The notes under the pieces: generated by a model | Seen by the model: the letters and a program-made list of their open reading frames with translations, nothing else | Told to the model about the DNA's origin: nothing | Databases searched by the model: none | Part shown: one piece after another, positions 38,647-64,000 of the stretch | Numbering within the stretch: position 1 is the first letter of the stretch | How the letters are laid out: the number at the start of each line of letters is the position of its first letter | DNA from: Lutibacter citreus | GTDB lineage: Bacteria; Bacteroidota; Bacteroidia; Flavobacteriales; Flavobacteriaceae | Length of the DNA stretch: 64,000 nt | Assembly (NCBI RefSeq): GCF_003260195.1 | Contig: NZ_QEIH01000005.1 | Coordinates: forward strand, 124,001 to 188,000 | Direction: 5' to 3' | Made by a program: the position numbers and the translations under genes

Positions 38647-38815
38647 TATTTTTATTGATATTCTACTGATAATAAGATTATTAACTATGTTTAAATAACG
38701 GTTTTTAAACTGTTTAATTAACCTCAAATATAGTGATTTGTTATAGTATAATAAACATTAAGCACCTATTTGTTTAATAAATCAAGTTAAATTGTGTCAT
38801 CAAATATATTTAAAA

Positions 38816-41395
38816 ATGAGAAAACTTTATTATTTAATTCTTTTAATTCCCTTTTTAGCTACATCTCAAATTGATAAAGCTTTTTTTAAAAAAATAAAAA
38901 AAGAAAAAATCACGTCAAATTCATCTATTGAATGGAAAAATTTTGGACCTGGGATGTCTGGTTATAATGAAGAATTTTGGTGTCATCCAACAGATAAAAA
39001 CGTCATGTTTATGGGCCCAGATATGCATGTTGCATATGGAAGTTGGGATAACGGAAAATCTTGGCAAACAATAAAAGATAGTGATGGTTTTGGAAAAGGT
39101 TTAGAACGTGTACTCGATATTGAATTTTCAACTAAAAATCCTGATTTTGGACTTGCTTTAGAACGAAAAGGAAAAATATTTGAAACAACCAATAGAGGAG
39201 GATCTTGGAGTTTAATTTATACAATTCCAGGTGCTACTAAATACGGAACAAATGTACATACTCAAATAGCAATACATCCAACAAACGATGATATTTGGTT
39301 TGTAGGAGCTGGAGATTTTTGGAATGTGAAAGAAAACCATAGATCTATAAAAAATATACATGGAAAGATACACCCAAGAGCAAAATACGGATATGTTTTA
39401 AAAACTACCAACCACGGAAAATCTTGGAAAAAAGTAGCAACTAATATTTCAAAAGATTTAGATGTTGCTCGTGTTATTTTCAATCCAAAAAATCCTAAAC
39501 AACTTTTTATTGCAACTAATTATGGAGTTTTTGTAAGCAATAATGAAGGTGAAGACTGGAAACCAAGTGGTAAAGGATTACCAAATAATTTACCTCGAGA
39601 TTTTACTTCTTATTACAATACAAAAACTAAAGAGTTTGTTTTGTATTTAGTAGAACAAACTATTTACGAGCCAAAAGGTAAAACTATTTCAACAAAAGGA
39701 GGTGTTTATAAAAGCACAAACAATGGCGAAAGTTGGGAAAACATTACGGGTAATTTAGGTGTGAATTTTAATGAAATTAAAGATGGTTCACATAGAAATA
39801 ATTATCATAAAGTATTAAGTTATTTTTTAGGTGAAAATTCAAAAAAACTATATCCTCAATTTCCTGAGAATACATATTCAGAATTTAATAGAATAGTAGT
39901 TAATCCTATAAACAAAAATGAAATTTACTTAGTAGCTAACCAACGCCACGATAAAAGTTTTGGACCTGGAGATGCTTGGAAAACTGAAGATGGAGGGAAA
40001 ACGTGGGTAATTACTGCACGTTCTGGTGAATACTGGTTAAATAAAAAAGATAAAGCATATTGGGAAAGTAAAGGTAATCCAACAGGAGCTAATGTTGAAT
40101 TTTCTCACGTTGGTCGTTCTTATGAAGAACAAAGTGAAACTAGATTTGGAAACAGAATGTTAGCCATTAATTCAATAGGAGAAGTATTTATTGGAGTTGG
40201 GCAACAAACTCAGCGTTCTAATGATAAAGGAAACTCTTGGCAACAAATTGATGATTATGAAACAAAACCTGGCAGTAATGCTTGGGTTGGTCGTGGTGAT
40301 AGTAATTTACCAGGAAGGTTTATGTTGTTGGAGACAGGAATTAAAGACCGATACTTATTATGTTCTGGAGAGCACGGTTTATGGCAAACAGCCGATTTAG
40401 GTGATTATCCAGATAAAGATGCAGTTGCAGTTACGCAAATTGAAGGGCAGGTGCACGATCATAGTGGGAATCACGGAGCACACTCAATATCTACAGTAGC
40501 TGTTCATCCAAATGATCCAAATACAATTTATATTTTATCTTGGAGACAAGAGCATAGAGGGAAACTTCGAAGAACTACGGATGGAGGAAAAACGTGGAAG
40601 AATATTTCAACAATTTTTGAAGGAAAAAATAGTCCACATCAAGGATTAGCAATGACTTACAATTTAACAATAGATCCTAAAGATCCAAATAATATGTATT
40701 TCACTTCAATTAGAAAACCAATTTCTGAAGTTGGTAGTTCTGTAAATGAAAATGTGCTAACAAAAGGAGGTTATGGCGTATATAAATCTACGGATGCTGG
40801 AATTACTTGGAGTCTTCATAACAATGGTTTACCAGAAAAAGCAAGTGTAAGAAGAATAAAAATGCACCCAGACAATTCAGAAATATTGTATGCTTGTTTA
40901 AACAAGAAAGGAGCTAAAGAACCTTCTGGTTTATATATTTCAACTAATAAAGCTAAATCTTGGAAGAAGATGAATATTCCTTCGGAAATAGAAGGTGTAA
41001 ACAACATTTTTATTGATAGAAATACAAAAGATATGTATTTGTCTGCGGGATATAGAGTTGGTTCTATTGAAACTGGAGGTGTTTGGAAAAGTACAAACAA
41101 CGGTAAAACTTGGACAAAGTTCTTTAAAGCTCCTTATGTATGGCAAACAGAAGTTTCTCCAATAAATTCAAAATTTATTATGGTAAATGTACCTGCTCAA
41201 GTTGAAACAAAATTTGATCAATTTAAAAATCCAGGAATTTATTTAACAAAGGATGGTGGAAAAAGTTGGGCTAAAATTAATAAAGGTATTGGTCAGCCAG
41301 ATAAAATGGTAGATTTAAAATTTGATCCATATAACGAAAATATTATTTGGAGTGCTGCTTGGGGAAGTGGTTGGTTTAAAGCAATTATTAAATAA
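38816..41395 (+). CDS. secreted Asp-box (BNR/VPS10-like) beta-propeller protein A
   Basis: An 859-residue exported protein (signal peptide 1-18, LIPFLATSQ) starting at the ATG at 38816; an in-frame upstream TTG would place non-signal residues first. About twelve Asp-box motifs (S/T-x-D/N-x-G-x-S/T-W) are spread through it, e.g. WDNGKSW, TNHGKSW, TNNGESW, EDGGKTW, TDGGKTW, TDAGITW and KDGGKSW. This count suggests two consecutive propellers, as in GH74 enzymes and sortilin-like proteins. Conserved stretches such as FGPGMSGYNEEFWCHPTD and HDHSGNHGAHSISTVAVHP-like segments are shared with the next gene. It is the first gene of the polysaccharide locus and a probable glycoside hydrolase or binding protein. 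No catalytic pair could be identified. Confidence 0.8.
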   Translation: MRKLYYLILLIPFLATSQIDKAFFKKIKKEKITSNSSIEWKNFGPGMSGYNEEFWCHPTDKNVMFMGPDMHVAYGSWDNGKSWQTIKDSDGFGKGLERVLDIEFSTKNPDFGLALERKGKIFETTNRGGSWSLIYTIPGATKYGTNVHTQIAIHPTNDDIWFVGAGDFWNVKENHRSIKNIHGKIHPRAKYGYVLKTTNHGKSWKKVATNISKDLDVARVIFNPKNPKQLFIATNYGVFVSNNEGEDWKPSGKGLPNNLPRDFTSYYNTKTKEFVLYLVEQTIYEPKGKTISTKGGVYKSTNNGESWENITGNLGVNFNEIKDGSHRNNYHKVLSYFLGENSKKLYPQFPENTYSEFNRIVVNPINKNEIYLVANQRHDKSFGPGDAWKTEDGGKTWVITARSGEYWLNKKDKAYWESKGNPTGANVEFSHVGRSYEEQSETRFGNRMLAINSIGEVFIGVGQQTQRSNDKGNSWQQIDDYETKPGSNAWVGRGDSNLPGRFMLLETGIKDRYLLCSGEHGLWQTADLGDYPDKDAVAVTQIEGQVHDHSGNHGAHSISTVAVHPNDPNTIYILSWRQEHRGKLRRTTDGGKTWKNISTIFEGKNSPHQGLAMTYNLTIDPKDPNNMYFTSIRKPISEVGSSVNENVLTKGGYGVYKSTDAGITWSLHNNGLPEKASVRRIKMHPDNSEILYACLNKKGAKEPSGLYISTNKAKSWKKMNIPSEIEGVNNIFIDRNTKDMYLSAGYRVGSIETGGVWKSTNNGKTWTKFFKAPYVWQTEVSPINSKFIMVNVPAQVETKFDQFKNPGIYLTKDGGKSWAKINKGIGQPDKMVDLKFDPYNENIIWSAAWGSGWFKAIIK

Positions 41396-41401
41396 TTCAA
41401 T

Positions 41402-44080
41402 ATGAAAAAAATCAACATTCTTTTCAGTTTAGTTCTTACAGCTTCATTTATTGTTAGTTGTAATCAAGATACAATTAAAGCTAAAGAAACCTTTTTTAGT
41501 AAGTTAAGAACTGAGAAGTTACAATCTGATCAAAGTATTGAATGGAAGAACTTTGGACCAGGAATGTCTGGTTATAACGAAGAGTTTTGGTGTCACCCAA
41601 CAGATTCAAATGTGATGTTTATGGGGCCAGATATGCATGTTGCATACGGAACTTGGGACAATGGAAAAACTTGGCAAACAATTAAGGACTCTGATGGTTT
41701 AGGGCTTGAAATGAAACGAGTTTTAGACATAGAGTTTTCAATGCAAAATGCTGATTTTGGAATGGCTTTAGATTGGAATGGTTGGGTTTATGAAACTACA
41801 GATAGAGGTCATTCTTGGACTAAAACAGAAGAATTGGGTAAAAGCTATAAGGAAGTAGGTATAGATCCTAATGATTTAAATTCTTTTGAAAAAGGTTGGT
41901 ATTACGAACAAGAAGGAACTCGCCATAGTGAATTAGCTGTTGATCCTACAAATGAAAATATTTGGTATGTGGGTGCAGGTGATTTCTGGAATGTAAAAAA
42001 TAATAAAAGAACAAAAGCAAATCCATATGGTACTGTTTTAAAATATGCATCTTACGGATATATTTATAAATCTATAGATAAAGGAAAATCTTGGAAAAAG
42101 ATTACAAATGGTTTACCAAAAAATACTGATGTAGGAAAAATTATAATAGATCCAAATAACAATAATAATGTTATTATGGCAGCTAATATTGGTTTACTGC
42201 ATAGTTTTGACGGTGGTTTGTCTTGGGAAAGTATAGTAAAAGGTTTACCAAATAATATACCTAGAGATTTAACTTCTTATTACAATAAAAAAACTAAAGA
42301 GTTTGTGCTATATTTAGTGGAACAAACAATTTACGAGCCAAAAGAAAAAAGTATTTCAACTAAAGGCGGAATTTATAAAAGTGTTGATGGTGGTAAAAAT
42401 TGGGTAAGCATTACTGGAGATTTAGGTGTGAATTTCAACAAAATAAATTACGGAGCACATAAAAATAATTATCACAAAGCATTGAGCTTCTTTTTAGGAG
42501 AGGATTCAAAAAAACTATACCCAATATTCCCTAAGAATACCTATTCAGCTTTTAATAAAATAGTTGTAAACCCTATTAATAAAAATGAAATTTATATAGT
42601 TGCAAATCAACGTCACGATAGAAGTTTTGGACCTGGAGAAGCTTGGAAAACTGAAAATGGTGGAAAAAATTGGGTAATTTGCGCACGTGCAGGTGAATAT
42701 TGGTTAAATAAAATAGATAAAGCTTATTGGGAAAATAAAGGAAATCCTATAGGAGCAAATGTTGAGTTTTCTCACGTTGCTCGTGCTTATGAAGAACAAA
42801 GTGAAACACAATTTGGAAATAGAGTATTAGCAATAAATTCAAAAGGAGATGTTATTATAGGTGTTGGTCAACAAACACAAAGATCTACAGATGGAGGAGT
42901 AACTTGGCCTCAGATAGACGATTATGAAACTTCAAAAGGAAGTGGAAAATGGATAGGTTGCGGAGATAGTAATTTACCAGGAAGATTTATGTTGCTTGAA
43001 ACAGGAATTCCAGAAAGAAGATTATTGTGCAGTGGAGAACACGGTTTATGGCAAACTACCGATTTGGATGGTTGGCCAGATAAACAAGCAGTTGCTGTTG
43101 AACAAATAGAAGGGCAAGTAAATGATCATAGTGGAAATCACGGAGCTCATTCAATATCTACGGTTGCTGTGCATCCAAATGATTCAAATACTATTTATTT
43201 TTTAGCTTGGCGTCAGGAACATAGAGGTAAATTGCGTAAAACTACTGATGGTGGGAAAACATGGAGCACTATTGCTACAATTTTTGAAGGAGCTAACGGT
43301 TCTTGGCAAAATTTAGCTCCGCAAAACTCATTAATTATAGATCCAGTGAATCCAAATAATATGTATTTCTGTGCTACTTCGGTAAAAATTTCAGAAATAA
43401 GTGGTTCACCAGCAGAACCATTAACAAAAGGAGGTTATGGTTTTTACAGATCTTTTGATGGAGGCTATACATGGGAATTGAGTAATAATGGTTTTCATAA
43501 AAATATGAGCGTTAGAAGAATTGCTATGGACCCAAGCAATCCAGAAACTTTGTATGCTGCTTTAAATGATGATAATGGAGGACTGTACAAATCAACAAAT
43601 AAAGGTAGTAATTGGGAAAGAGTATTAATTCCTTCTGTAATAAAATCGGTGAACAATGTTTTTATAGACAGAAATACAAAAGACATTTTAATTAGTACAG
43701 GTAGAAGAACAGGTACTTATGAAGAAGGAGGTGTTTGGAGAAGTAAAAATGGAGGAGAATCTTGGGAGCAAATTTTTAAAGCGCCTTATGTTTGGCAGGC
43801 TGAAACTTCACCTGTAAATTCAAAATTAATAGTAGTTAATGTTCCTGGGCAAATAGTAAGTATGGCTCATAATTTTATGAATCCGGGTATTTACCTTTCA
43901 AAAGATGATGGTGAAAATTGGACTAAAATAAATAAAGGTTTAGGTCAACAAGATAAAATGGTTGATGTAAAACCAGATCCTTATAATGAAAATGTTATTT
44001 GGAGTGCAGCTTGGGGCTGTGGTTGGTATGTAGCTTATTTAAATGGAACAAAAGAAGGTTATTTAATTACAGAAAAATAA
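41402..44080 (+). CDS. lipoprotein Asp-box beta-propeller protein B
   Basis: An 892-residue paralogue of the preceding gene, 6 bp downstream. It differs at the N-terminus in having a lipoprotein signal (TASFIVSC, Cys20), so it should be membrane-anchored while its partner is free. It also has about twelve Asp-boxes (WDNGKTW, TDRGHSW, FDGGLSW, VDGGKNW, TDGGVTW, TDGGKTW, FDGGYTW, KDDGENW and others). Long blocks are nearly identical between the two, for example NFGPGMSGYNEEFWCHPTD and SNLPGRFMLLETGI. It has an extra insertion around residues 145-165 and a C-terminal extension (GTKEGYLITEK). The gene arose by tandem duplication. Enzymatic function is likely but unassigned. Confidence 0.8.
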   Translation: MKKINILFSLVLTASFIVSCNQDTIKAKETFFSKLRTEKLQSDQSIEWKNFGPGMSGYNEEFWCHPTDSNVMFMGPDMHVAYGTWDNGKTWQTIKDSDGLGLEMKRVLDIEFSMQNADFGMALDWNGWVYETTDRGHSWTKTEELGKSYKEVGIDPNDLNSFEKGWYYEQEGTRHSELAVDPTNENIWYVGAGDFWNVKNNKRTKANPYGTVLKYASYGYIYKSIDKGKSWKKITNGLPKNTDVGKIIIDPNNNNNVIMAANIGLLHSFDGGLSWESIVKGLPNNIPRDLTSYYNKKTKEFVLYLVEQTIYEPKEKSISTKGGIYKSVDGGKNWVSITGDLGVNFNKINYGAHKNNYHKALSFFLGEDSKKLYPIFPKNTYSAFNKIVVNPINKNEIYIVANQRHDRSFGPGEAWKTENGGKNWVICARAGEYWLNKIDKAYWENKGNPIGANVEFSHVARAYEEQSETQFGNRVLAINSKGDVIIGVGQQTQRSTDGGVTWPQIDDYETSKGSGKWIGCGDSNLPGRFMLLETGIPERRLLCSGEHGLWQTTDLDGWPDKQAVAVEQIEGQVNDHSGNHGAHSISTVAVHPNDSNTIYFLAWRQEHRGKLRKTTDGGKTWSTIATIFEGANGSWQNLAPQNSLIIDPVNPNNMYFCATSVKISEISGSPAEPLTKGGYGFYRSFDGGYTWELSNNGFHKNMSVRRIAMDPSNPETLYAALNDDNGGLYKSTNKGSNWERVLIPSVIKSVNNVFIDRNTKDILISTGRRTGTYEEGGVWRSKNGGESWEQIFKAPYVWQAETSPVNSKLIVVNVPGQIVSMAHNFMNPGIYLSKDDGENWTKINKGLGQQDKMVDVKPDPYNENVIWSAAWGCGWYVAYLNGTKEGYLITEK

Positions 44081-44109
44081 AATACTAATTGATTGCAAAT
44101 ATTTAAAAA

Positions 44110-46314
44110 ATGAAAAACAGAATTTACACTAGAAATTTAGTTTTATTACTTCTAATTTTAGGTCCTTTATTAGTAAAAGCACAAGAAGTAGACTTTTCTT
44201 ATCTAAAAAAGGATTTACCGGTTGAAGTTAGAGCTGAATTATTAGTTTCTCAAATGACTTTGGATGAAAAGATAGGACAAATGACGCATTATGCAAATGA
44301 AATTTCAAGGCTAAAAGTACCAGATTATAATTGGTGGAGTGAAGCTTTGCATGGGGTTGCACGTAATGGAGAGGCTACAATTTTCCCACAGGCTATAGGA
44401 TTTGGAGCTACTTTTGATCCTGAGTTAATCGAAAAAGTGGCAGATGCAATTTCAACAGAAGCAAGAGCTAAATTCACTATTGCTCAAAGTATGGGAAACC
44501 ATAGTAAATATGCAGGATTAACCTTTTGGTCACCAACAGTAAATTTGTTCCGTGATCCAAGATATGGTCGTGGTCAGGAATGTTATGGAGAAGATCCATT
44601 CTTAATGTCTAAAATTGGGGTTGCATATGTAAACGGTTTACAAGGAAATGACCCTAATATGTTAAAAGCTGCAGCCTGTGCTAAGCATTTTGTAATGCAT
44701 TCTGGCCCGGAACATAATAAGCTTAAATTTAATGTTGAAGTTTCTAAGCAAGATCTTTATGAAACGTATTTCCCTCCATTTAAAGCATTAGTTACTGAAG
44801 CTAAAGTTGAAGGAGTTATGACTGCTTATAATATGGTATTTGGAAAACCTTCTTGTACTAGTGAGTTTTTGATAAAAGAAACATTAAGAGATAACTGGAA
44901 ATTTGATGGGTATGTAACTTCAGATTGTGGAGCCATAAGCGGTGCTGCAGGAAACCAAGGTTATGTGAAATCAAGTCTTGAGGCTGCTGAGTTAGCTTTA
45001 AAAGCGGGAGTGAATTTAAATTGTGGTGGAACTTATAAGCAATTAAAAACGGCAGTTGAAAAAGGAATGATTACCGAAGAATTGATTCATAAAAGAGTGG
45101 TTCAGTTATTTAAAACCCGTTTTCGTTTAGGTTTATTTGATGAAGATAATAATCATAAATACACTAAAATTGGTCCTGATCAAATTCACAGTGCAGAGCA
45201 CGTTGCTTTGGCAAGAGAAGTTGCTCAGAAATCAATAGTATTATTAAAAAATAAAAACAATGTATTACCATTATCACCAAAAATAAAAATTCCTTATATA
45301 ACAGGTCCTTTTGCAAATTCAAATGATGTTTTAATGGGAAGTTATTATGGAGTTAGCACAGGGTTAGTTTCAATAATGGAAGGAGTTACAGGAGCTGTTT
45401 CTAAAGGTAGTTCACTAAATTATAGAACAGGAGCTTTACCTTTTCAAATTAATCCAAACCCTAAAAATTGGGCGCCAAATGTAGCAGCTGAAGCAGATGT
45501 TACAATATGTGTTGTTGGGACAACAAGGTATTTAGAAGGGGAGTCGGTAGATGCAATAGCTTCAACTCATAGTGGCGATAAAGTAGATTTAAAATTGCCT
45601 GAAAATCAAATAAGATATATTCATCAATTAATTGAAAAGAAAGGTGATAGTCCTTTAATATTGGTAATAGCAAGTGGAGGGCCGGTTTCTTTGGAAGGAA
45701 TTGAGGAACACTGTGATGCTATTCTTCAAATGTGGTATCCAGGGGAACAAGGTGGTAATGCTGTTGCAGATATATTATTTGGAAAAATTTCACCTTCTGC
45801 ACGTTTGCCTATAACGTTTCCTAAAAATGTAGCTCAATTGCCGTCTTATGATGCATACTCTATGAAAGGGCGTACCTATAAGTATATGACAAAAGAACCT
45901 ATGTTTCCATTTGGATTTGGGTTAACATATTCTAAAACTGAATTTAAAAACATGACTTTAAACGCTGAAAAGTTGAAAGTAAAAGATGCTCTTGAAGTTA
46001 ATGTAGAAGTTGCCAATACTGGTGATTTTAATATTGATGAAGTTGTTCAACTATATATTTGTCCAGAAGATATTTCAGGTGGAATTCCAATGAAAAGTTT
46101 AAAAGCATTTAAACGAATTTCTTTGGCTAAAGGAACGGCTAAAATGATTTCTTTTTCTATTAAACCAGAAGATTTAAAAGTGTATAATGAAGAAGGTGAA
46201 AAAGTATGGAGAAAAGGAAAATATAATGTTGTAGTAGGGAATTCTTCTCCAGGAGAATTAAGCATAAAACTTGGTGCAGCTGTGCCTCAGGAAATGATTA
46301 TTCAACTGAAATAA
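44110..46314 (+). CDS. GH3 family glycoside hydrolase (beta-xylosidase-type)
   Basis: A 734-residue secreted GH3 enzyme (signal peptide 1-24, ending VKAQ). YNWWSEALHGVARNGEATIFPQAIGFGATFD (described by position, 73-103) is typical of the beta-xylosidase/arabinosidase branch. KHF (192-194) and the nucleophile Asp272 in VTSDCGAISG are intact, followed by the alpha/beta sandwich domain and a fibronectin type III-like C-terminal domain (about 630-720). It would release single non-reducing-end sugars in the periplasm. The exact sugar (xylose, glucose, galactose) is not settled. Confidence 0.92.
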   Translation: MKNRIYTRNLVLLLLILGPLLVKAQEVDFSYLKKDLPVEVRAELLVSQMTLDEKIGQMTHYANEISRLKVPDYNWWSEALHGVARNGEATIFPQAIGFGATFDPELIEKVADAISTEARAKFTIAQSMGNHSKYAGLTFWSPTVNLFRDPRYGRGQECYGEDPFLMSKIGVAYVNGLQGNDPNMLKAAACAKHFVMHSGPEHNKLKFNVEVSKQDLYETYFPPFKALVTEAKVEGVMTAYNMVFGKPSCTSEFLIKETLRDNWKFDGYVTSDCGAISGAAGNQGYVKSSLEAAELALKAGVNLNCGGTYKQLKTAVEKGMITEELIHKRVVQLFKTRFRLGLFDEDNNHKYTKIGPDQIHSAEHVALAREVAQKSIVLLKNKNNVLPLSPKIKIPYITGPFANSNDVLMGSYYGVSTGLVSIMEGVTGAVSKGSSLNYRTGALPFQINPNPKNWAPNVAAEADVTICVVGTTRYLEGESVDAIASTHSGDKVDLKLPENQIRYIHQLIEKKGDSPLILVIASGGPVSLEGIEEHCDAILQMWYPGEQGGNAVADILFGKISPSARLPITFPKNVAQLPSYDAYSMKGRTYKYMTKEPMFPFGFGLTYSKTEFKNMTLNAEKLKVKDALEVNVEVANTGDFNIDEVVQLYICPEDISGGIPMKSLKAFKRISLAKGTAKMISFSIKPEDLKVYNEEGEKVWRKGKYNVVVGNSSPGELSIKLGAAVPQEMIIQLK

Positions 46315-46326
46315 AAAACAGATCTA

Positions 46327-48003: not shown

Positions 48004-48100
48004 AATTTATAAGATGAAACGAGCTTGCTTAAATTTAATAACTAAAGAAAAGACTAATAGCGAACGCGAGATCTACCCTATTAAAAATAAAAAAAGACAC

Positions 48101-49636: not shown

Positions 49637-49641
49637 AATTT

Positions 49642-49723
49642 TCTTCAACCTAAACTTGTTTCAGGTTCTCATAGTGATTAGTAACCAGTATGATGAAATT
49701 CTGAAACAAGTTCAGAAAGACGC
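49642..49723. repeat. palindromic intergenic element, copy 3, inside the polysaccharide locus
   Basis: Two arms share AACTTGTTTCAG and its complement CTGAAACAAGTT, around a core palindrome TCATAGTGATTA...TAACCAGTATGA. It is related to copies 1 and 2 in the core and in the right arm, but no terminal TAAAAAGTA repeats were found. It fills the gap between a sulfatase and a GH3 gene. Confidence 0.65.
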
Positions 49724-49770
49724 CTTTTACAGTGATAAGGACTCTAGATTGAATAAAAAACAAGACTTAA

Positions 49771-52152: not shown

Positions 52153-52171
52153 CATCAAAAATAGATTTAAA

Positions 52172-53560: not shown

Positions 53561-53571
53561 AAAACAAAGTC

Positions 53572-55368: not shown

Positions 55369-55372
55369 AGAA

Positions 55373-57202
55373 ATGAAAAAAAGACTAGAACTACTATTGT
55401 TTACATTGGTATTTACGTTTACATTTTATGCGCAAAACCAACCTAATGTATTATGGATTATTACAGATGACCATCGCCCAGATGCATTAGAGTGTTATAA
55501 CCAAGCTACATTGGGAAAGAGTGAGAGCACACTTGGTTATGTGTCTTCACCCAACATAGATAAATTGGCAAGTGAAGGAGTTATGTTTGTAAATGCATAC
55601 AATAATTCACCTGCTTGTGGACCTTCAAGAGGTTCATTAATTAGTGGTAGATATCCTTTTAGAAATGGACATTATGCTTTTGAATTAAGCCATCAAGAAC
55701 CAGATTTTGTAAAACCTTCATTTCTTCAAACACTTCAAAAAGAAGGATATGTTACAGCGTTGTTTGGAAAAGGAGATTCTTATATTTTTAAATGGGGACC
55801 TGGTCAAGGATATATTGATGCGGGACACTATAATTATAAAGTTCATTTTAAGCATGATTTACAAAAAAATGATGTTGGTGATATGTGGAAGCAACCTTTT
55901 TATGAAAAAGGAAATTGGAAAACTGCAGGTGATGAAGAAAGAGTTAGGTTACCAGATGGAACTATTGAGAAGTACATTGTAAAAAAGAAAAAAGGTGAAA
56001 TAAGCGATGCTGACATTAAGAAAAAGAAAGAAATAGAGGATAGGTTTGATATTTTAAGAGCTTATACTAGATATAATAAAACTTTAATTTTTGGAGGTGA
56101 AAACCCAATGCCTGCAGGACAAACTGTTGATGGTAAAATTGTAGAAGAGTTTAAGTTATATTTAGCGAATCAGAATGTAGATTTTAAAACAACTTGGGGC
56201 GCAAAACATAAAGGAGCAAATTCAAATAAACCTTTACTAATTAATTTAGGTTTTCATTTGCCACATACTCCGGTATTACCTCCAAAAGAATTTAGAGATA
56301 AGTTTAAAACTAAAAAATACAAAGTTCCAGAGTTTGGTAAAGAGAACTTAGATAAACTTCCTCCTCAATTGGTTAAGTTATACAATAATTTAAATATGAG
56401 TAGAATGAATGATGCTGATAAGCAACAAGCTATTCAAGATTATTATGCTTTTTGTGCTTATGGAGACTCATTAATTGGTGATGCAGTAAAGGCTTTTAAA
56501 GATTATTGTAACAAAAACAAACAAGAGTATTTAATAATTTTTGCAGTTGGAGATCACGGTTGGCATTTAGGGGAACAAGGAATTGAAGCTAAATTCGGTC
56601 CATGGCAACAATCTTTAAACAATGCTGTAATTTTAGTTTCTTCAGATAAAAATAAAGTACCTGTAAATAAAATTAAGCGTCAAATGATTGAGTATGTAGA
56701 TATTGCACCTACAATTCTTTCAGCAAGTGGTGTTGATATTAATAATGAGAAATATAACTACTTAGATGGAATGAACCTTTTTGATTTTTTGAAAAATGAT
56801 AAAGAAAAAAGAGAATATATAGTTGGTGAAATTAGTTTAGTTGCTGGTCCAAGAGCATATTTAAGATCAAAGGAATTTTCATTTTCTATGAGAACTAGAT
56901 CTATTAAAAAAGGTTTACCAAATGAAAATATTAAATGGGCATTGGAATGTCCTGTTGAGAAAGCTGAATTGGCCTTATATGATTTAAGAAATGATCCGTT
57001 TGAATTAAACAATTTGGCTAATGAAAAGCAATATAAAGATTTAGCTCAGTGGTTTAGAGAAAAACTTGGAAATATAGTTTTAGGAGATGGGCGTGTAGAA
57101 TGCGATTGGTCTAAGGCAAACACTTATAAAATTAGCAATTTTGCGAAAGGAGCGCATGATGGTAAGTTAAATATTCCATCACGGATTATTCCTAAAGTTT
57201 AA
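55373..57202 (+). CDS. sulfatase (S1 family), long form
   Basis: A 609-residue secreted sulfatase (signal peptide 1-20, FTFYAQ). The formylglycine motif is CGPSR at Cys82 and the metal site ITDDHRPDALE. A large insertion (about 170-275, Lys/Glu rich) separates the early motifs from LGFHLPHTPVLPPKEF and VGDHGWHLGEQG, a layout like iduronate-2-sulfatase-type enzymes. It would act on a uronic-acid-like or neutral sulfated sugar, but the exact target is unknown. Confidence 0.9.
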   Translation: MKKRLELLLFTLVFTFTFYAQNQPNVLWIITDDHRPDALECYNQATLGKSESTLGYVSSPNIDKLASEGVMFVNAYNNSPACGPSRGSLISGRYPFRNGHYAFELSHQEPDFVKPSFLQTLQKEGYVTALFGKGDSYIFKWGPGQGYIDAGHYNYKVHFKHDLQKNDVGDMWKQPFYEKGNWKTAGDEERVRLPDGTIEKYIVKKKKGEISDADIKKKKEIEDRFDILRAYTRYNKTLIFGGENPMPAGQTVDGKIVEEFKLYLANQNVDFKTTWGAKHKGANSNKPLLINLGFHLPHTPVLPPKEFRDKFKTKKYKVPEFGKENLDKLPPQLVKLYNNLNMSRMNDADKQQAIQDYYAFCAYGDSLIGDAVKAFKDYCNKNKQEYLIIFAVGDHGWHLGEQGIEAKFGPWQQSLNNAVILVSSDKNKVPVNKIKRQMIEYVDIAPTILSASGVDINNEKYNYLDGMNLFDFLKNDKEKREYIVGEISLVAGPRAYLRSKEFSFSMRTRSIKKGLPNENIKWALECPVEKAELALYDLRNDPFELNNLANEKQYKDLAQWFREKLGNIVLGDGRVECDWSKANTYKISNFAKGAHDGKLNIPSRIIPKV

Positions 57203-57229
57203 TAAACATTACAATTAAAAAATATATTT

Positions 57230-58051
57230 ATGAAATGTAGAAGTCAGCTATTTTACGTATTGATAATTCTAATTTGTAATACAGTTTTTGCGCAACCCAG
57301 TGCTCCAAAAGGATATAAGTGGGAAGTGGTTGAAGCATTAACAGATGAGTTTAAAGAGTTTGACACTTCAAAATGGAGTTATTCTCTTTGGAATTATCCA
57401 CCACCAAATATTATGATGAAAAGTCAGGTTTCAGTAAAAAATGGAAAACTAACTATTAAAGCTGAAAAAAATTCAGATTCGGTTAGATGGATGAGAACGG
57501 GTAGAATAATGTCTAAAGCACAAATTGGCTATCCAATGTATACTGAATGTAGCATGAAAGCATCCGATATTTCGGCATACAATACCTATTGGTTAAATAA
57601 TGGAAATTCTGAAAATAGGAATGAGATAGATATTTGTGAGAACAATGCAAACCCTACCAACCCGAAAACAAAACAAACCATTGAAGATTTTCCGTTTATA
57701 ATGCAATCTAATATTCATCATGCAGTAAATGGAAAAAACTTGCGTAGTCCTAGTTATGCTTCAACAAAATTTCTTTCAGAAAAAAATAAAAATAGAAACA
57801 AAAATTTTACAGAAACCTACCACACAATGGGATTGTATTGGGAAGATGATCGTAAATGTCATTGGTTTTTAGATGGTGAATATGTTGGGTTTTCATCAGC
57901 TCAAAGAAAATTTACGTTGGAGTTGAATCTATATTTCGGATTATGGTCAAACACTTGGGATGGATTTGCAACAAAAGAAAGTTTAAACGATGATTCTAGA
58001 AATACAATGTACGTAGATTGGATTCACACATATAAATTGGTTAAAAATTAA
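57230..58051 (+). CDS. GH16 family endo-hydrolase (agarase/porphyranase-like)
   Basis: A 273-residue secreted enzyme (signal peptide 1-21, TVFAQ). The catalytic beta-strand is NEIDICE (131-137): ExDxxE with the beta-bulge, nucleophile Glu132 and acid/base Glu137, as in GH16 enzymes cutting red-algal galactans. Supporting features are WSYSLWNYPPPN, YPMYTECSMKASD and the C-terminal GLYWEDDRKCHWFLDGEYV and MYVDWIHTYKL. This is the only obvious endo-acting enzyme in the window, so it probably makes the first cuts. Beta-agarase, porphyranase and furcellaranase-like specificities cannot be separated by eye. Confidence 0.88.
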   Translation: MKCRSQLFYVLIILICNTVFAQPSAPKGYKWEVVEALTDEFKEFDTSKWSYSLWNYPPPNIMMKSQVSVKNGKLTIKAEKNSDSVRWMRTGRIMSKAQIGYPMYTECSMKASDISAYNTYWLNNGNSENRNEIDICENNANPTNPKTKQTIEDFPFIMQSNIHHAVNGKNLRSPSYASTKFLSEKNKNRNKNFTETYHTMGLYWEDDRKCHWFLDGEYVGFSSAQRKFTLELNLYFGLWSNTWDGFATKESLNDDSRNTMYVDWIHTYKLVKN

Positions 58052-58078
58052 TAGCACATATTTCAAAATAATAAAACA

Positions 58079-59503
58079 ATGAAAAAAATAGTATTCTTTA
58101 CAGTTATAGTTGCGCTACTAAGTTGTAACGTTATTAAAGCACAGGCTATAAAAACTAAAAAACCAAATGTTCTTATCATTTTAGCAGATGATTTAGGTTG
58201 GGGAGATGTTGGTTTTAATGGTTGTACAGATATTCCAACCCCTACGTTAGACGATCTGGCAAACCAAGGAGTTGTTTTTAGCGCAGGTTACAGTTCTCAC
58301 CCATATTGTGGTCCAAGCCGTTCTGGTTTGATGGCTGGTAGATATCAACAAAGATTTGGCTGTGAGAATAATATAGGCAAAGATTTTGATGGTCCGGTAC
58401 CAGGTGTTCCTTTAGGTGAAAAAATGATTTCAGAAGTTTTAAAAGATAATGGTTATCAAACTTGTGCAATTGGGAAGTGGCATTTAGGAAATGTAGCTGA
58501 GTATTGGCCAAATAATAGAGGATTTGATGATTGGTTTGGGTTTTCTGGTGGTTCTCGTAACTATTGGGGTAAATCTTGGGAGGAAAACTTTTCAAACTGG
58601 CATAGAATTATGCGAGATGGAAAACCAGAACCTCGTGAGAATTTAAGCTACCTAACTGATGATTTTACAGATGCTGCAGTAGAATATATTAATGAATATA
58701 GCAAAAACGATAAACCATTTTTCATGTATTTGGCGTACAACGCTCCTCACGCACCTATTCAAGCTACAAGTGAATACTTGAAATTAACTGACCATATTGA
58801 GGACGGTAAAAGAGCTGCTTATGGAGCAATGGTTGCAGGAATGGATGTTGGTATTGGGAAAGTAATTGAAAAATTAAAACAAAGTGGAGAGTATGAAAAT
58901 ACGCTAATCTTTTTTTATAGCGATAATGGAGGACATGGAAATGGTACTTCGCAAGAACCTTATAGAGGACAAAAAGGAATGTTGTTTGAAGGTGGTATTC
59001 GTGTTCCTTTCTTAATGTCTTGGCCAAATAAACTTAAAAATGGTGTGCAATATGATGAGCCAGTAATTGCTTATGATATTTTTACTACCATTTTAAAAGC
59101 GGCAGATGTTAGTTGTGAAAAAGAAAATTTATTGGACGGGGTTAATTTACTTCCTTTTGTGAAAGAGGAAAAATCAAATAAAGTTCCGCATGAAAAACTT
59201 TTTTGGAGATATAGCGATGGTGAGGGTTATGCAGTGCGTAAAGGAGATTACAAATTGATAAAAGAAGTTGTTAGAGATGACCTTTTTCTATTTAATATAA
59301 AAAATGATTCATTGGAACATCATAATTTAGTTGAAGCGATGCCAGTAAAAGTAAAGGAGTTGCAAGCTGAATATGATAAATGGAATAAAGACAATGTAGA
59401 AAACCATTGGCCAGATAAGCATATTCCTAATGTTTTAAAAACTAAGAAAACACGAGAAGAAATCATTTCTAAAACAAGCGGAGGAGAAAGGAACTATAAA
59501 TAA
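58079..59503 (+). CDS. sulfatase (S1 family), 474 residues
   Basis: A secreted Cys-type sulfatase. The N-terminus (VALLSCNVIKAQA) could be processed as a lipoprotein at Cys16 or by ordinary signal peptidase after AQA. The formylglycine motif CGPSR starts at Cys77, the metal site is ILADDLGWGD, then AIGKWHLGN and YSDNGGHGNG. It resembles the sulfatase at 62194 in length and in the CGPSR...YQQRFG...GKWHLGN...RGFD order, so the two may be related duplicates. It is part of the operon, between the GH16 and GH2 genes. Confidence 0.92.
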   Translation: MKKIVFFTVIVALLSCNVIKAQAIKTKKPNVLIILADDLGWGDVGFNGCTDIPTPTLDDLANQGVVFSAGYSSHPYCGPSRSGLMAGRYQQRFGCENNIGKDFDGPVPGVPLGEKMISEVLKDNGYQTCAIGKWHLGNVAEYWPNNRGFDDWFGFSGGSRNYWGKSWEENFSNWHRIMRDGKPEPRENLSYLTDDFTDAAVEYINEYSKNDKPFFMYLAYNAPHAPIQATSEYLKLTDHIEDGKRAAYGAMVAGMDVGIGKVIEKLKQSGEYENTLIFFYSDNGGHGNGTSQEPYRGQKGMLFEGGIRVPFLMSWPNKLKNGVQYDEPVIAYDIFTTILKAADVSCEKENLLDGVNLLPFVKEEKSNKVPHEKLFWRYSDGEGYAVRKGDYKLIKEVVRDDLFLFNIKNDSLEHHNLVEAMPVKVKELQAEYDKWNKDNVENHWPDKHIPNVLKTKKTREEIISKTSGGERNYK

Positions 59504-59536
59504 ATTATTTAAAGAACAAAAATAAAAGATAAACAG

Positions 59537-62047
59537 ATGATTAAAAGACTATTAGTTATACTCGTAATAATACTGAGTTATAGCGGATACGCACAGACTG
59601 AAAGAAGCCAAGATTTTAACTTTGATTGGAAATTTACCTTAGTTGAAGAAACAGAGAAGCCAACTCAATTACCGTTAAATGATGCTGATTGGCGAGATGT
59701 TAGATTACCACATGATTGGAGTGTTGAAGCTTCTTTTGGAGAAAATTTAGAAGGTTGTACTGGTTATTTACCTGGTGGAGTTGGTGTTTACCAAAAACAC
59801 TTTAAAACACCTTCAAATACTTCAGAAAAAAACATTTTTGTGTTATTTGATGGAGTTTATAACAATGCTACTTTTTGGTTAAATGGTAAATTGTTAGGTG
59901 AAAATCCTTATGGATATTCACCAACATATTTTGAATTAACAAAATATTTAAAAACTGATGGTTCAGAAAATATTATTACAGTTCATGTAGATCATTCTCG
60001 TTATGCAGATAGCCGTTGGTATACGGGTAGTGGTATTTATAGAAATGTAAAATTAATTTCTGTAAATAAATTACACATTCCTATTTGGGGAACTTTTGTA
60101 ACTACTCCTGAAATTACAAATGAAAAAGCAGTAGTTAGTATTGAAACTAAAGTTAAAAATAGTGATAGAAAAACAAAGAAATTTGTGTTAACAAATGAAA
60201 TTTTAGACGGTAAAGGAAGTAGTGTTTCAATTCAGAAAAAAGAATTAAAAGTTTCTGCAGGTAAAAATTTGGTTAACACGCAATTATTATCTGTTTCTAA
60301 CCCTAAATTATGGAATACTGATACACCTAATATGTATACTGTAGTTTCAACAATTACTTTAAAAGGAAAGGTTGTTGATACGTATACAACTCCGTTTGGT
60401 ATTCGCAGTTTAGAAACAAATGATCAAGGGTTCTTTTTAAATGGAAAATCTACCTATGTAAAAGGTGTTTGTATTCATCATGATGGTGGTTTAGTAGGTT
60501 CAGCTGTTCCAAAAGGAGTTTGGAGACGCAGATTAGCTTCATTAAAAGAAGGTGGTTGTAATGCTATTAGAACTTCACATAATCCATTTTCTAAAGAATT
60601 TTTAGACTTATGTGATGAAATGGGATTCTTGGTTCAAAATGAAATTTTTGACGAAATGGATAACCCAAAAGACAAACAATTTAATTTAAATGAAAGAAGT
60701 GTAAAATATATAACTCGCGGTTATACGGAGCATTTTCAAAAGTGGGGAGAAAGTGATTTAACAAGAACCATTTTAAGAGATAGAAATCACCCTTCTGTAT
60801 TTCAGTGGAGTATTGGTAATGAAATTGAATGGACTTATCCAGATTATAAACATGTAAGTGGTTTATGGGATCCAGAGGTAAAAGGAGGTTATTGGAATAA
60901 GATTCCCCAATTAACAGCAGCTGAAATGCAGGCTCGTTACAAAGCATTACCAGATAGAAAATACAAACTTGCTGAAACTGCAAAAAGACTTTCCAGATGG
61001 GTGAAAAAATTAGATACAACTCGACCGGTAACTGCAAATTTAATTATTCCTGTAGCAAGTTTAGCTTCTGGTTATGCGGATGCTTTAGATGTGGTTGGGT
61101 TTAGCTACCAAACAAATCAGTACAATTGGAGCAAAAAGAATTATCCTAATAAATTATTCACAGGTTCAGAAAATTCTGGTAGTTGGCAAGATTGGAATTC
61201 AATTATAGAAAATCCAATGGTGTTTAGTATGTATATGTGGACCGGAATTGATTATTTGGGTGAAGCAAATGAGAAATGGCCACAAAAAGGTTGGGATGGA
61301 GATATGTTAGATTTTGCTGGGTTTAAAAAAACTGGGTGGAATTATTTTAAAAGTATTTGGGTGAATAAGCCTCATGTTTCTATAGCTACATTACCTATAA
61401 ATGAAACGGATTTTACAGTAGATGCATTAAGCGGAAAACCAGTTGCTAAATCTAAGAAAGCGTTAAGTTGGAACACTTTTACTTCAAAGGAACATTGGAA
61501 TTATAAAAAAGGTGATACCGTTTTAGTTGAAGTTTCTTCAAATCATCACATTGTTGAATTATTCTTAAATGGAAAATCTTTAGGAAGTAAAAGTATGAGC
61601 GAATGCCAGGATAGAGTTTTCCGTTGGGCTGTTCCTTTTGAAGTAGGAGTTTTAACTGCTAAAGCAGGTTTTGATGGTGCTGAGGTTATTTCAGAATTAA
61701 AAACAACTTCTGAGCCAGTAAGTATTAAATTAACTACAGATAAAACAACATTAACTGCAGATGGTTATGATGTTGCTCATATTATAGCACAACTAGTAGA
61801 TAAAGATGGGAATGCTGTAAAAACATCAGAAGCTAATTTAACTTTTGAAGTTGAAGGTAATGCTAAAGTTTTGGGTGTAGATAACGGCTCAAATAAGAGC
61901 ATACAAGATTTTCAATCTAATAAATTAAAAACTTCTCAAGGTAGAGGGTTACTATTAATACAATCGTTACAAAAAGGAGGGGAAGTATTGGTTAAAGCCA
62001 CTTCAGCTTCATTGTATAGTAAAAGTATACATATAAAAATTCAATAA
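59537..62047 (+). CDS. GH2 family glycoside hydrolase (beta-galactosidase-type)
   Basis: An 836-residue secreted GH2 enzyme (signal peptide 1-19, YSGYAQ). The domain order is a jellyroll sugar-binding domain (25-178), an Ig-like domain (180-290), a TIM barrel (292-600, starting FFLNGKSTYVKGVCIHHD), and C-terminal beta domains including the SIKLTTDKTTLTADGYDVAHI segment. The catalytic acid/base is Glu429 in WSIGNEIEW, and the nucleophile is probably Glu545 in FTGSENSGSW. It would remove terminal beta-linked sugars, most often galactose. It closes the operon, with a terminator right after. Confidence 0.92.
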   Translation: MIKRLLVILVIILSYSGYAQTERSQDFNFDWKFTLVEETEKPTQLPLNDADWRDVRLPHDWSVEASFGENLEGCTGYLPGGVGVYQKHFKTPSNTSEKNIFVLFDGVYNNATFWLNGKLLGENPYGYSPTYFELTKYLKTDGSENIITVHVDHSRYADSRWYTGSGIYRNVKLISVNKLHIPIWGTFVTTPEITNEKAVVSIETKVKNSDRKTKKFVLTNEILDGKGSSVSIQKKELKVSAGKNLVNTQLLSVSNPKLWNTDTPNMYTVVSTITLKGKVVDTYTTPFGIRSLETNDQGFFLNGKSTYVKGVCIHHDGGLVGSAVPKGVWRRRLASLKEGGCNAIRTSHNPFSKEFLDLCDEMGFLVQNEIFDEMDNPKDKQFNLNERSVKYITRGYTEHFQKWGESDLTRTILRDRNHPSVFQWSIGNEIEWTYPDYKHVSGLWDPEVKGGYWNKIPQLTAAEMQARYKALPDRKYKLAETAKRLSRWVKKLDTTRPVTANLIIPVASLASGYADALDVVGFSYQTNQYNWSKKNYPNKLFTGSENSGSWQDWNSIIENPMVFSMYMWTGIDYLGEANEKWPQKGWDGDMLDFAGFKKTGWNYFKSIWVNKPHVSIATLPINETDFTVDALSGKPVAKSKKALSWNTFTSKEHWNYKKGDTVLVEVSSNHHIVELFLNGKSLGSKSMSECQDRVFRWAVPFEVGVLTAKAGFDGAEVISELKTTSEPVSIKLTTDKTTLTADGYDVAHIIAQLVDKDGNAVKTSEANLTFEVEGNAKVLGVDNGSNKSIQDFQSNKLKTSQGRGLLLIQSLQKGGEVLVKATSASLYSKSIHIKIQ

Positions 62048-62060
62048 ACTGTATAGATTA

Positions 62061-62098
62061 AATATGGTAAGAATAAATATAAACTTGCCATATTTTTT
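62061..62098 (+). terminator. terminator after the GH2 gene
   Basis: Stem AATATGGTAAG / CTTGCCATATT (one G-U type pair) with a 12-nt loop and a T-run. It separates the next sulfatase from the long operon. Confidence 0.7.
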
Positions 62099-62193
62099 CA
62101 AATTTCAAACACAAATATTATAACATTAAAATAATCTAAAACAAGAAAGCAAGTTAGGAAAACATATCTTGCTTCAGTTAAAATACAGTAATT

Positions 62194-63591
62194 ATGAGAA
62201 CAAAAAGACTAATTTTATTTTTCGCATTAAGTTTCGTTTTTTCATCTGTGTTATTCGCGCAGAAGAAAACAAATATTGTATTCCTATTTGCAGATGATGC
62301 AGGTTACCACGATTTTGGTTTCCAAGGAAGTAAAACATTTAAAACACCAAATTTAGACAAGTTAGCTACTGAAGGAGTTGTAATGAAGCAAGCCTATACA
62401 ACTGCAGCTGTTTGTGGACCTTCAAGAGCAGGTTTGTTAACAGGAATGTACCAACAACGTTTTGGAATTGAAGAAAACAATGTTCCTGGTTATATGAGCC
62501 ATTCTTCAAAATTAATGGGTGATGAAATGGGGTTGCCATTACATTTAAAAACCATTGCCGATTATTTAAAACCATTAGGTTATAAGTCGCAAATATTAGG
62601 AAAATGGCATTTAGGAAACGCAGATAGATACCATCCTTTAAAAAGAGGATTTGATGAGTTTTATGGTTTTAGAGGAGGAGCAAGAAGTTTTTGGCCATTA
62701 ACACAAACAGAAGCTGCTGAAAGACCTGAAAATAGATTGGAAATTGGGTATCAAAAATATGAAGAACCATCTAAATATTTAACAGATGCTATTGCGGATG
62801 AAGCTTGTAACTTTATGGAGAGAAATAAAAAGAAACCATTTTTCATGTATGTTTCTTTTAATGCCGTTCACACCCCAATGCAAGCTACAAAAGAAGATTT
62901 GGCTAAAGTAAAGGGTTTAACAGGGAAACGTAAAACATTGGCTGCTATGACAATTGCCTTAGATAGAGCTTGTGGTCAAATATTAGAAAAATTGAAAGAA
63001 TTAGGTTTAGAAGAAAACACACTTGTAGTGTTTTCAAATGATAATGGTGGTCCTGATGGTTCTATGACTTGTAATTACCCATTAAGTGGTTGTAAATCTA
63101 ATAACCTTGAGGGTGGAATTCGTGTTCCTTGTATACTAAAATTACCAAATGTAATTAAACCTGGAACAACTTATAATAAACCTGTAAGTATGTTAGATAT
63201 GTTACCAACATTTGTAAATGCAGGTGCTGGAGATGCGTCTAAAATTAAAAATATTGATGGAGTTGATTTAATACCTTACATCACTGGTGAAAATAAAGCG
63301 GCACCTCACGAAATGTTATTTTGGAAAAAAGAAAATAGAGGTATTATTCGTATGGGAGATTGGAAAATGTTGAGGTTTCCAGATAGACCTGCTGAATTAT
63401 ACAATATAGAAAAGGACCAAGAGGAGAATAACAACTTAGCCTATAAACATCCTGAAAAAGTAAAAGAAATGTTTACTCATTTATGGAATTGGGAATGTGA
63501 ATTAGAGCGTCCACTTTGGATGTTAAAACGTGTTTATGAAGAAAACGCAATGAAGCGTATGGACGATAAAAGAACTCCAGTTTTAGATTAA
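62194..63591 (+). CDS. sulfatase (S1 family), 465 residues
   Basis: A secreted Cys-type sulfatase (signal peptide 1-23, SVLFAQ). The formylglycine motif CGPSR begins at Cys74, the metal site is LFADDAGYHD, with ILGKWHLGN and FSNDNGGPDG downstream. It lacks the C-terminal extension of the lipoprotein sulfatase. It is separated from the upstream operon by a terminator and a 146-bp gap, and has its own terminator at 63621-63673, so it is likely a separate transcription unit of the same locus. Confidence 0.92.
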   Translation: MRTKRLILFFALSFVFSSVLFAQKKTNIVFLFADDAGYHDFGFQGSKTFKTPNLDKLATEGVVMKQAYTTAAVCGPSRAGLLTGMYQQRFGIEENNVPGYMSHSSKLMGDEMGLPLHLKTIADYLKPLGYKSQILGKWHLGNADRYHPLKRGFDEFYGFRGGARSFWPLTQTEAAERPENRLEIGYQKYEEPSKYLTDAIADEACNFMERNKKKPFFMYVSFNAVHTPMQATKEDLAKVKGLTGKRKTLAAMTIALDRACGQILEKLKELGLEENTLVVFSNDNGGPDGSMTCNYPLSGCKSNNLEGGIRVPCILKLPNVIKPGTTYNKPVSMLDMLPTFVNAGAGDASKIKNIDGVDLIPYITGENKAAPHEMLFWKKENRGIIRMGDWKMLRFPDRPAELYNIEKDQEENNNLAYKHPEKVKEMFTHLWNWECELERPLWMLKRVYEENAMKRMDDKRTPVLD

Positions 63592-63620
63592 AAAATTAAG
63601 AAGAGAATACTTCTAATTAT

Positions 63621-63673
63621 AATGCATCCGGGATATTTCAATTATAAAAATTGAATATTTTGGATGCATTTTT
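63621..63673 (+). terminator. long-stem terminator after the last complete sulfatase
   Basis: Left arm AATGCATCCGGGATATTTCA... pairs with ...AATATTTTGGATGCATT (63621-63643 with 63649-63670), ending in a T-run. Confidence 0.75.
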
Positions 63674-63858
63674 ATTAGTTAATGGTTTTGAAATTGGAAG
63701 ATAAAGTAGTTTCTAACTTTTATAATACTCTCTTTTTTATTTAGAAATGATGGTGTTTAAACACTATACAAACAATATACAAATAACTGTTTTTAGAATA
63801 TATACGCATAAAAAAACATACGTTTTAGTTTTAGACACATATAGCTGTCCACTCAATT

Positions 63859-63866
63859 TAACTTTG
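63859..63866 (+). promoter_or_regulatory. -7-like promoter box before the right-edge gene
   Basis: TAACTTTG matches TAnnTTTG, 37 bp before the ATG at 63904. No TTG sits at the expected -33 spacing. Confidence 0.4.
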
Positions 63867-63903
63867 TTTTAAATTGCATAAACAAATTGAAATAGGTTTT
63901 ATT

Positions 63904-64000
63904 ATGAAAATAAAAAATATAGCTTTAATTTTTTCAAAGCTATTATTAGTGAAAATAAATATTTCTATTGCTCAACAAATACAGCAACCAAATATATTTT
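63904..64000 (+). CDS. secreted protein N-terminus, probably a sixth sulfatase (partial)
   Basis: Only 32 residues are in the window. They form a signal peptide (IKNIALIFSKLLLVKINISIAQ, by position 3-24) followed by QIQQPNIF. The 'QPNI(F/L)' right after the signal peptide is how sulfatases begin their first beta-strand, as in the AKPNIV, APNVIL and QPNVLW starts of the neighbours, so a sulfatase is the best guess. This is an inference from eight residues and position. Confidence 0.5.
   Translation, partial: MKIKNIALIFSKLLLVKINISIAQQIQQPNIF

Follow-up and report, generated by a model that had tools for sequence, protein, structure and literature searches.

A 53-kb one-strand gene cluster of Lutibacter citreus without SusC/SusD genes and its tentative assignment to a substituted sulfated agaran

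Which polysaccharide is taken apart by a long run of sulfatases and glycoside hydrolases that carries no SusC/SusD transporter pair of its own? This question is raised by a stretch of 64,000 nucleotides from Lutibacter citreus (referred to as the window), which covers bases 124,001-188,000 of the 514-kb contig C31 in a genome of 5.1 Mb and 35 contigs. An initial annotation made from the sequence had described the right part of the window as a sulfatase-rich locus of secreted proteins without SusC/SusD or a known-substrate signature, possibly directed at a less studied sulfated galactan. Following the locus beyond the window edge we find a one-strand catabolic cluster of ~53 kb without its own SusC/SusD. 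With slightly less than even confidence we assign it to a sulfated substituted agaran, probably one bearing beta-D-xylose side groups as in the corallinan/Ceramiales type. The substrate, each activity, the localisation and the regulation we infer from sequence comparisons and structure models.

Within the window, 13 complete genes lie on the plus strand from 38,792/38,816 to 63,591, separated by intergenic gaps of 4-146 nt. Pfam recovered every family named in the initial annotation (two Asp-box, two GH3, PF13204/DUF5060, GH43, GH16, GH2 and five sulfatases), and its count of twelve complete genes had to be corrected. The order begins with Asp-box protein 1 (38816..41395; PF15902/PF02012), a candidate hydrolase with a predicted tandem-propeller, GH74-like fold, and Asp-box protein 2 (41402..44080), which carries a lipobox and is 63.5% identical to the first. 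They are followed by a GH3 (44110..46314; top-scoring NCBIfam model xylan 1,4-beta-xylosidase, under the cut-off), a PF13204 (apiosidase-like) enzyme with a weak DUF5060 match (46327..48003; 24.5 bits against a cut-off of 27.2), an S1 sulfatase (48014..49636), a second GH3 (49771..52152; best model beta-xylosidase/alpha-L-arabinosidase, below cut-off) and a GH43 lipoprotein (52172..53560) whose nearest solved structures are beta-xylosidases/arabinofuranosidases. Next come two S1 sulfatases, one with a lipobox (53572..55368; nearest solved entries 6bia, named 'Sulfatase', and carrageenan sulfatases, E 2e-52 to 2e-47) and one with distant solved relatives only (55373..57202; best E 2e-25), the GH16 (57230..58051), a further S1 sulfatase (58079..59503), a GH2 resembling beta-galactosidases (59537..62047; best NCBIfam GalA/GalB, below cut-off) and a fifth S1 sulfatase (62194..63591), which is 38% identical to the one at 58079. 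The earlier statement that all these proteins are secreted agrees with visual inspection of the N-termini and with a simple search for lipoboxes. A partial gene noted at the window edge turned out to be what is left of the 5′ end of a decayed sulfatase gene (63904..64000, plus strand, on to L008:223): its frame meets a stop codon after 39 codons, just outside the window. At the same relative place in Lutibacter oricola, before GH35, stands an open frame of 622 codons that encodes a sulfatase domain (L050:261-2126).

The same-strand run extends to C31:216,203, corresponding to ~92,203 in window coordinates. To the right of the window it encodes, in order, a GH35, three sulfatases, an SGNH protein, a sulfatase, the third Asp-box protein, an SGNH protein, a SASA protein, two sulfatases, a second SASA protein, a PhoD-like protein, a GH116 fragment, a GH116, a GH43-type protein and, at the end of the run, a GH117; the next gene, a PAS histidine kinase, lies on the opposite strand. 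Excluding fragments the cluster comprises 29 genes, among them 11 intact S1 sulfatases and three Asp-box proteins; its SGNH proteins score under the Pfam cut-off. All 11 intact sulfatases combine PF00884 with the C-x-P-[ST]-R signature, including the five in the window that had been called Cys-type. The GH116 fragment is a 205-aa open frame (L009:2677-3294), 37% identical over 176 residues to part of the following GH116, and is probably what remains of a further GH116 gene. A chance origin is not plausible for 13 same-strand glycosidase, sulfatase and Asp-box genes whose shared order is kept in two relatives.

The assignment to a substituted agaran builds on the GH16, the GH117, the xylose-type GH3 and GH43 proteins, the chemistry of corallinans and the association of the Asp-box proteins with agar-type enzymes. 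The window GH16, in which EIDICE provides the E-x-D-x-x-E site reported earlier, has beta-agarase C of Zobellia (ZgAgaC, 6hy3) as its best solved match (E 1e-64, 45.7% identity); porphyranases follow from E 2e-18 and kappa-carrageenase at E 8e-4. In a 23-sequence tree it pairs with one GH16 of another genome of the family (69.6%; support 0.999), as a sister clade to the AgaC (GH16_15) group. Our comparison indicates that it is agar-type, yet no plain AgaC; an AgaC-type GH16 is encoded elsewhere in the genome (C33, 74% to 6HY3). The GH117 matches 4u6d (E 3e-190, 636 bits) and 4u6b (E 1e-155, 522 bits), the former being an entry that we take to be a GH117. Through these two genes the proposed sulfated galactan backbone gains support and is narrowed to the agar type. 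The statement that no known-substrate signature was in view was thus too strong for this genome, even if neither gene occurs in the corresponding clusters of two other Lutibacter genomes.

The GH3 and GH43 enzymes had earlier been taken to indicate other terminal sugars, and this point can be made more concrete. The top NCBIfam models of both GH3s are of xylosidase type, and the L. oricola version of the cluster ends in a GH43 carrying PF17851 ('Beta xylosidase C-terminal'). According to two papers (PMC7511586, PMC9504466), the agarans called corallinans carry a single beta-D-xylose or methyl substituent at O-6 of galactose and sulfate on the other unit, and several Rhodomelaceae agarans combine 2-sulfated galactose with xylose. 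Beta-xylose stubs, as present on corallinans and some Ceramiales agarans, would be suitable targets for the GH3, the GH43 and the L. oricola GH43-PF17851 proteins. We judge a xylosylated sulfated agaran to match the gene list better than agarose, porphyran or carrageenan.

We surveyed 249 sampled genomes of the bacterial family, the own genome included, at thresholds of E 1e-100 for Asp-box, E 1e-10 for agarase/porphyranase-type GH16 and E 1e-40 for GH117. Positive genomes numbered 11, 22 and 26, respectively. Both GH16 and GH117 were found in 10 of the 11 Asp-box genomes and neither in the eleventh (G072); Fisher tests gave p 3e-11 for co-occurrence with GH16 and 3e-10 with GH117. The best three Asp-box candidates were scored per genome, so that copy numbers should be read as minima. 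The linkage count covered 24 Asp-box genes, three from the own genome and with tandem copies counted separately. A GH117 stands no more than 25 kb away from 12 of them (against 1.4 expected) and a GH16 from 8 (against 1.3 expected), two of these 8 being the window's own. The linkage lists omit some GH117 and GH16 rows of genomes free of Asp-box genes, which leaves the counts unaffected.

Among 61 public Asp-box loci of at least 15 kb, 45 contain a sulfatase matching our query set, the commonest partner being the sulfatase L008:9389 (17/61). At least three other cluster genes at ≥50% identity occur in 24 of the 61, some of which are two parts of one genome; 25 loci had at least three query-set genes, and L056 was excluded as the genes it shares are those of the C30 cluster only. 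Partial sets are found in Wenyingzhuangia, Flavicella, Tamlana, Algibacter, Zobellia, Seonamhaeicola, Labilibaculum, Saccharicrinis, Reichenbachiella and others. The nearest named relatives of Asp-box protein 1 among the best 80 of 173 matches are those of L. oricola and an uncultured Lutibacter (86%). Their clusters (L. oricola, C16:304,832-333,130, loci L014 and L050; uncultured Lutibacter, C5:303,919-341,042, loci L015 and L045) have the genes in common with the own genome arranged in an unchanged order, at 65-90% identity. Common to the clusters is a core of Asp-box proteins, sulfatases, GH35, SGNH, SASA and PhoD-like proteins; GH43 and GH2 are seen in L. oricola, and the uncultured Lutibacter has the GH3s and the PF13204 gene. 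Both clusters also show an open frame of 955-965 codons after SASA, where the own genome has other genes; the copy at L045:15405-18269 has a beta-helix and a type IX tail.

However, a number of observations weigh against a substituted agaran. The window GH16 branches outside the AgaC group (split 0.98), the NCBIfam matches of the GH3s and the GH2 are sub-threshold, most enzyme families of the cluster are polyspecific, and the 58079 sulfatase has its nearest solved relatives in S1_19 and carrageenan sulfatases, with E values running from 5e-97, that of S1_19, to 1e-86. The GH117 is much closer to 4u6d and 4u6b than to the anhydro-L-galactosidase entries (E ~1e-58, ~200 bits) and so may not act on 3,6-anhydro-L-galactose. 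The two nearest entries are Zobellia paralogues that are not known to have the usual neoagarobiose activity. The co-occurrence may stem from a common seaweed lifestyle, and 7 of the 24 Asp-box genes in the linkage count are of a divergent type (33-36%), including the G236 copy directly between GH117 and GH16. In the stretches analysed of the 61 public loci, GH16 was seen in 3 and GH117 in 13. Neither Lutibacter cluster contains a GH16 at E 1e-10 or a GH117 at E 1e-40: all 11 and 18 matches of the two genomes, respectively, lie on other contigs. The analysed stretch of the L. oricola cluster further lacks both GH3s and PF13204, its second Asp-box gene being followed immediately by a sulfatase and the GH43. 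The lower rates in public loci and the Lutibacter result weaken the link to agar enzymes. We considered GH16 and GH117 as part of a conserved core and ruled this out because they are missing from the clusters of both relatives; they may be local additions. For this reason we lowered our estimate for the substituted agaran from slightly above to slightly below even, and that for the more far-reaching proposal on a new GH74-fold family (see below) from unlikely to rather unlikely, and raised those for a carrageenan locus and a composite island slightly.

The Asp-box proteins match sortilin/BNR models in Pfam (PF15902/PF02012), with sortilin domain as the best name. We modelled Asp-box protein 1 (pLDDT 90.4) on a 45-sequence alignment that comprises three own copies and sequences from 42 of 73 loci; L054 and L073 were excluded due to in-frame stops, others mostly for size. 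The predicted structure consists of tandem seven-bladed Asp-box propellers as in GH74, and in a Foldseek search ranks 1-25 were all GH74/xyloglucan-enzyme entries (E 5e-29 to 2e-22), followed by PorZ at rank 26 (E 2e-14). A profile search of PDB sequences with hmmsearch likewise placed GH74-type chains on top (best E 7e-21), and hhalign aligned the family with three GH74-like plasmid-encoded proteins (99.7%, E 6e-27, 630 columns, 21% identity). After the Foldseek and PDB profile results we dropped 'sortilin-like' as a functional name. In both hmmsearch and hhalign, Asp69 aligns with the Asp of the GH74 motif RTDIGGAYRW, residue 35 of chain 2ebs by our own count, which we take to be the catalytic base.

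Residues were surveyed in 102 sequences (6 own and 96 open reading frames with more than 500 aligned residues, identical ones dropped; genes cut by a locus end may count twice), divided into a core clade of 80 at ≥44% identity and a divergent clade of 22 under 44%. Five of the 102 are gapped at position 69. Asp69 occupies 76/76 ungapped core rows and 3/21 ungapped divergent rows, 18 of which carry Asn69; position 543 holds Asp or Glu in 77/80 core sequences and no acid in any of the 22 divergent ones, 17 of these being gaps. The joint loss at 69 and 543 fits a catalytic pair, but may be a single evolutionary event. Whole-length hhalign puts E543 near the GH74 acid, although realigning that region alone was non-significant. 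Glu519, invariant in 102/102 sequences, was expected from its motif to be the counterpart of the GH74 acid; hhalign with whole or cut alignments did not pair the two, and we dropped this reading. The family thus resembles GH74 xyloglucanases in its predicted tandem two-propeller fold and in the base Asp kept by the core clade, and differs from them in low identity (14-21% in structural and profile alignments), in having a putative counterpart only for the catalytic acid and in a gene setting of sulfatases and galactan-type enzymes.

The best-surviving alternative concerns these proteins: they could be non-catalytic glycan-binding propellers and not hydrolases. We hold this to be unlikely, since GH74 enzymes come closest in fold and the core clade retains Asp69 and the acid at 543 almost throughout; the divergent clade with its Asn69 and missing acid, together with the sortilin name in Pfam, nevertheless speaks for it. 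As for the opposite, more far-reaching proposal, it appears rather unlikely as a whole: the Asp-box proteins would form an undescribed GH74-fold glycoside hydrolase family acting on a sulfated red-algal galactan, not xyloglucan, and the cluster would be the first set for a xylosylated sulfated agaran of the corallinan type, under a new family of membrane winged-helix regulators.

The family occurs in marine Bacteroidota, with few members in Gammaproteobacteria, Kiritimatiellales, Verrucomicrobiota and Planctomycetota; the own genome has six genes. One of them, in L011 (C30:258000-277900), encodes a protein with a type IX secretion tail in a cluster with SusD, GH29, GH2 and a porphyranase-type GH86, and shares with the GH86 protein a stretch of ~230 residues at 43% identity, probably the C-terminal tail. 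Another member lies on plasmid pG7 of the gammaproteobacterium Gayadomonas joobiniege (L073; the matched range is not a single frame, one open reading frame covers most of it), which is a hint of mobility. The tandem propellers of GH74 were already included among the Asp-box proteins in a 2009 review (PMC2716378), which expects more families. In a table of 2016, Z. galactanivorans is credited with two GH74 (PMC4807772); these two may be members of the Asp-box family that were loosely counted.

With regard to the substrate, an improbable alternative is a composite island, in which genes for several sulfated glycans lie side by side and form no single pathway. The 136 matches of the PF00884 sulfatase domain in the genome (some genes matched twice), the paralogous pairs, the decayed sulfatase and the GH116 fragment, the variable subsets in public relatives and the lack of GH16 and GH117 in the two Lutibacter clusters would all suit such an island, which is at odds with the single strand, the short gaps and the gene order kept in these same genomes. 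Quite improbable is an ordinary agar or porphyran locus with accessory extra enzymes: the AgaC-related GH16, the GH117 and the Asp-box copy inside the genome's porphyranase-type GH86 cluster point that way, but an AgaC-type GH16 (C33) and the GH86 cluster (C30) are already encoded in the genome, plain agarose would, as we infer, not call for 11 sulfatases and GH3, GH43 and GH116 enzymes, and no GH86-type Pfam match was found among the cluster proteins. A carrageenan or furcellaran-type galactan, suggested by the solved relatives of the 58079 and 53572 sulfatases and by homologous clusters free of agar-type GH16 and GH117, is very improbable given a GH16 nearest to an agarase with kappa-carrageenase only at E 8e-4, no GH82, GH127 or GH129 in Pfam scans (no search was aimed at them) and 4-sulfated galactose known also from some agarans, as a passage of PMC7511586 states.

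How fragments would enter the cell is a separate matter. None of the 20 SusD (PF14322) matches of the genome falls inside C31:162,792-216,203, the only one on this contig being at C31:262,410, ~46 kb to the right of the cluster. Pfam scans, which covered each cluster gene at least in part, gave no SusC/SusD match either. The absence noted for the window therefore also applies to its right, and the cluster lacks the SusC/SusD pair by which canonical Bacteroidota polysaccharide utilization loci (PULs) are defined. In both Lutibacter clusters, judged by size and start and without a full scan, no SusC/SusD-like open reading frame was seen. There is a precedent: passages of PMC5698469 and PMC9296495 describe the Zobellia carrageenan cluster PUL51 as lacking a SusC/SusD of its own and having a distant, induced pair. 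The type IX secretion tail PF18962 was found on none of the cluster proteins in Pfam scans. In the C30 cluster it is present on the Asp-box protein, on the GH86 and on a beta-helix neighbour. The difference suggests that the products described here remain periplasmic or membrane-bound.

Divergently oriented to the cluster lies a gene on the minus strand (37474..38727) for a putative regulator of 417 residues, with a winged helix-turn-helix-like N-terminus, a predicted transmembrane helix and a C-terminal part of ~235 residues. Set against the plan of ToxR/CadC-like regulators, an N-terminal Trans_reg_C domain and a single transmembrane helix, the N-terminus scores 25.2 bits with PF00486 (Trans_reg_C), whose cut-off is 26.2; the helix (156-180) is predicted in a modest model (pLDDT 77), and the C-terminal part gave no significant fold match. 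The family is present in 8 of 296 sampled genomes of the phylum, the own included, with six copies in the own genome. BLAST with our query set places five of the six (copies including L117, L118, L120 and L121) within ~8 kb of glycoside hydrolase or sulfatase genes: one beside the window cluster, one on C30 near two GH16-like genes, GH2 and GH29, one at C22:584 with four sulfatases and a GH43/PF13204 pair, one at C22:314 near GH2 and one at C22:331 beside GH2 and GH3; the sixth (C12) is not obviously so placed. The uncultured Lutibacter carries a 68% copy at the corresponding place beside its cluster, where L. oricola has none. Further left in the window (32740-34913), a helix-turn-helix/S24-peptidase regulator precedes an exonuclease and GIY-YIG fusion protein.

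A substituted agaran could be processed as follows. The polymer would be cut at the surface, or its fragments imported via a SusC/SusD pair encoded elsewhere. The AgaC-related GH16 would cut the agaran backbone at substituted sites. Removal of sulfate and acyl groups would fall to the eleven S1 sulfatases and to the esterase-like proteins of SGNH and SASA type. Xylose or other stubs would be taken off by the GH3 and GH43 enzymes, perhaps also by GH116 and the PF13204 protein; GH117, GH2 and GH35 would dismantle the chain from its end. The three Asp-box proteins might act as GH74-fold hydrolases on the same polymer, and the divergent membrane winged-helix regulator may sense a breakdown product.

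We found no characterised locus with this gene set in the literature searched; the initial annotation had matched it to no known agar, carrageenan, ulvan or fucoidan locus. The agar system of Z. galactanivorans (AgaC GH16_15, GH117, GH2) shares the GH117, the GH2 and a GH16 nearest to AgaC; it differs in that the cluster has a sister-clade GH16 and unites 11 sulfatases, GH3s and GH116 in one run. Other Zobellia species (L029-L031) have varying subsets of Asp-box, PhoD-like (73%), GH43-like (70%), PF13204 (62%) and GH117 (76%) genes gathered in a single stretch; in the literature searched we found no description of this Zobellia Asp-box locus. PUL51 (ZGAL_3145-3159) is a comparably large sulfatase and glycosidase cluster without SusC/SusD, but has its own families GH127, GH129-like, S1_7 and S1_19 and an AraC-family regulator, as far as the passages cited above describe it (PMC5698469, PMC9296495). 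For Zobellia ZGAL_3628-3640, with GH16 PorD/PorE, GH2, GH29 and sulfatases, a passage by its authors proposes another sulfated galactan, e.g. sulfated agars; unlike the cluster it has a SusC/SusD pair, GH28 and GH29. The large red-algal PUL of Paraglaciecola hydrolytica S66 likewise unites GH16, GH117 and GH2 enzymes directed at agar (PMC5943477), but uses GH50, and the text of that paper contains none of the terms 'BNR', 'propeller' and 'GH74'.

Taken together, the cluster is a real, partly conserved, SusCD-free system for a sulfated galactan, most likely a substituted agaran, with its two most agar-like genes outside the conserved core. The substituted agarans of coralline and Ceramiales algae have been described structurally, as passages of PMC7511586 and PMC9504466 show, and in the literature searched we found no gene set named for their breakdown. 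For these polymers the cluster supplies a testable list of enzymes, among them a possible new family of hydrolases and sulfatases whose solved relatives are distant only. It is also a further case of sulfated-galactan enzymes kept apart from their transporter, and PUL predictors seeded on SusC/SusD would miss such clusters. The part of the cluster most deserving assay is the GH74-fold Asp-box family.

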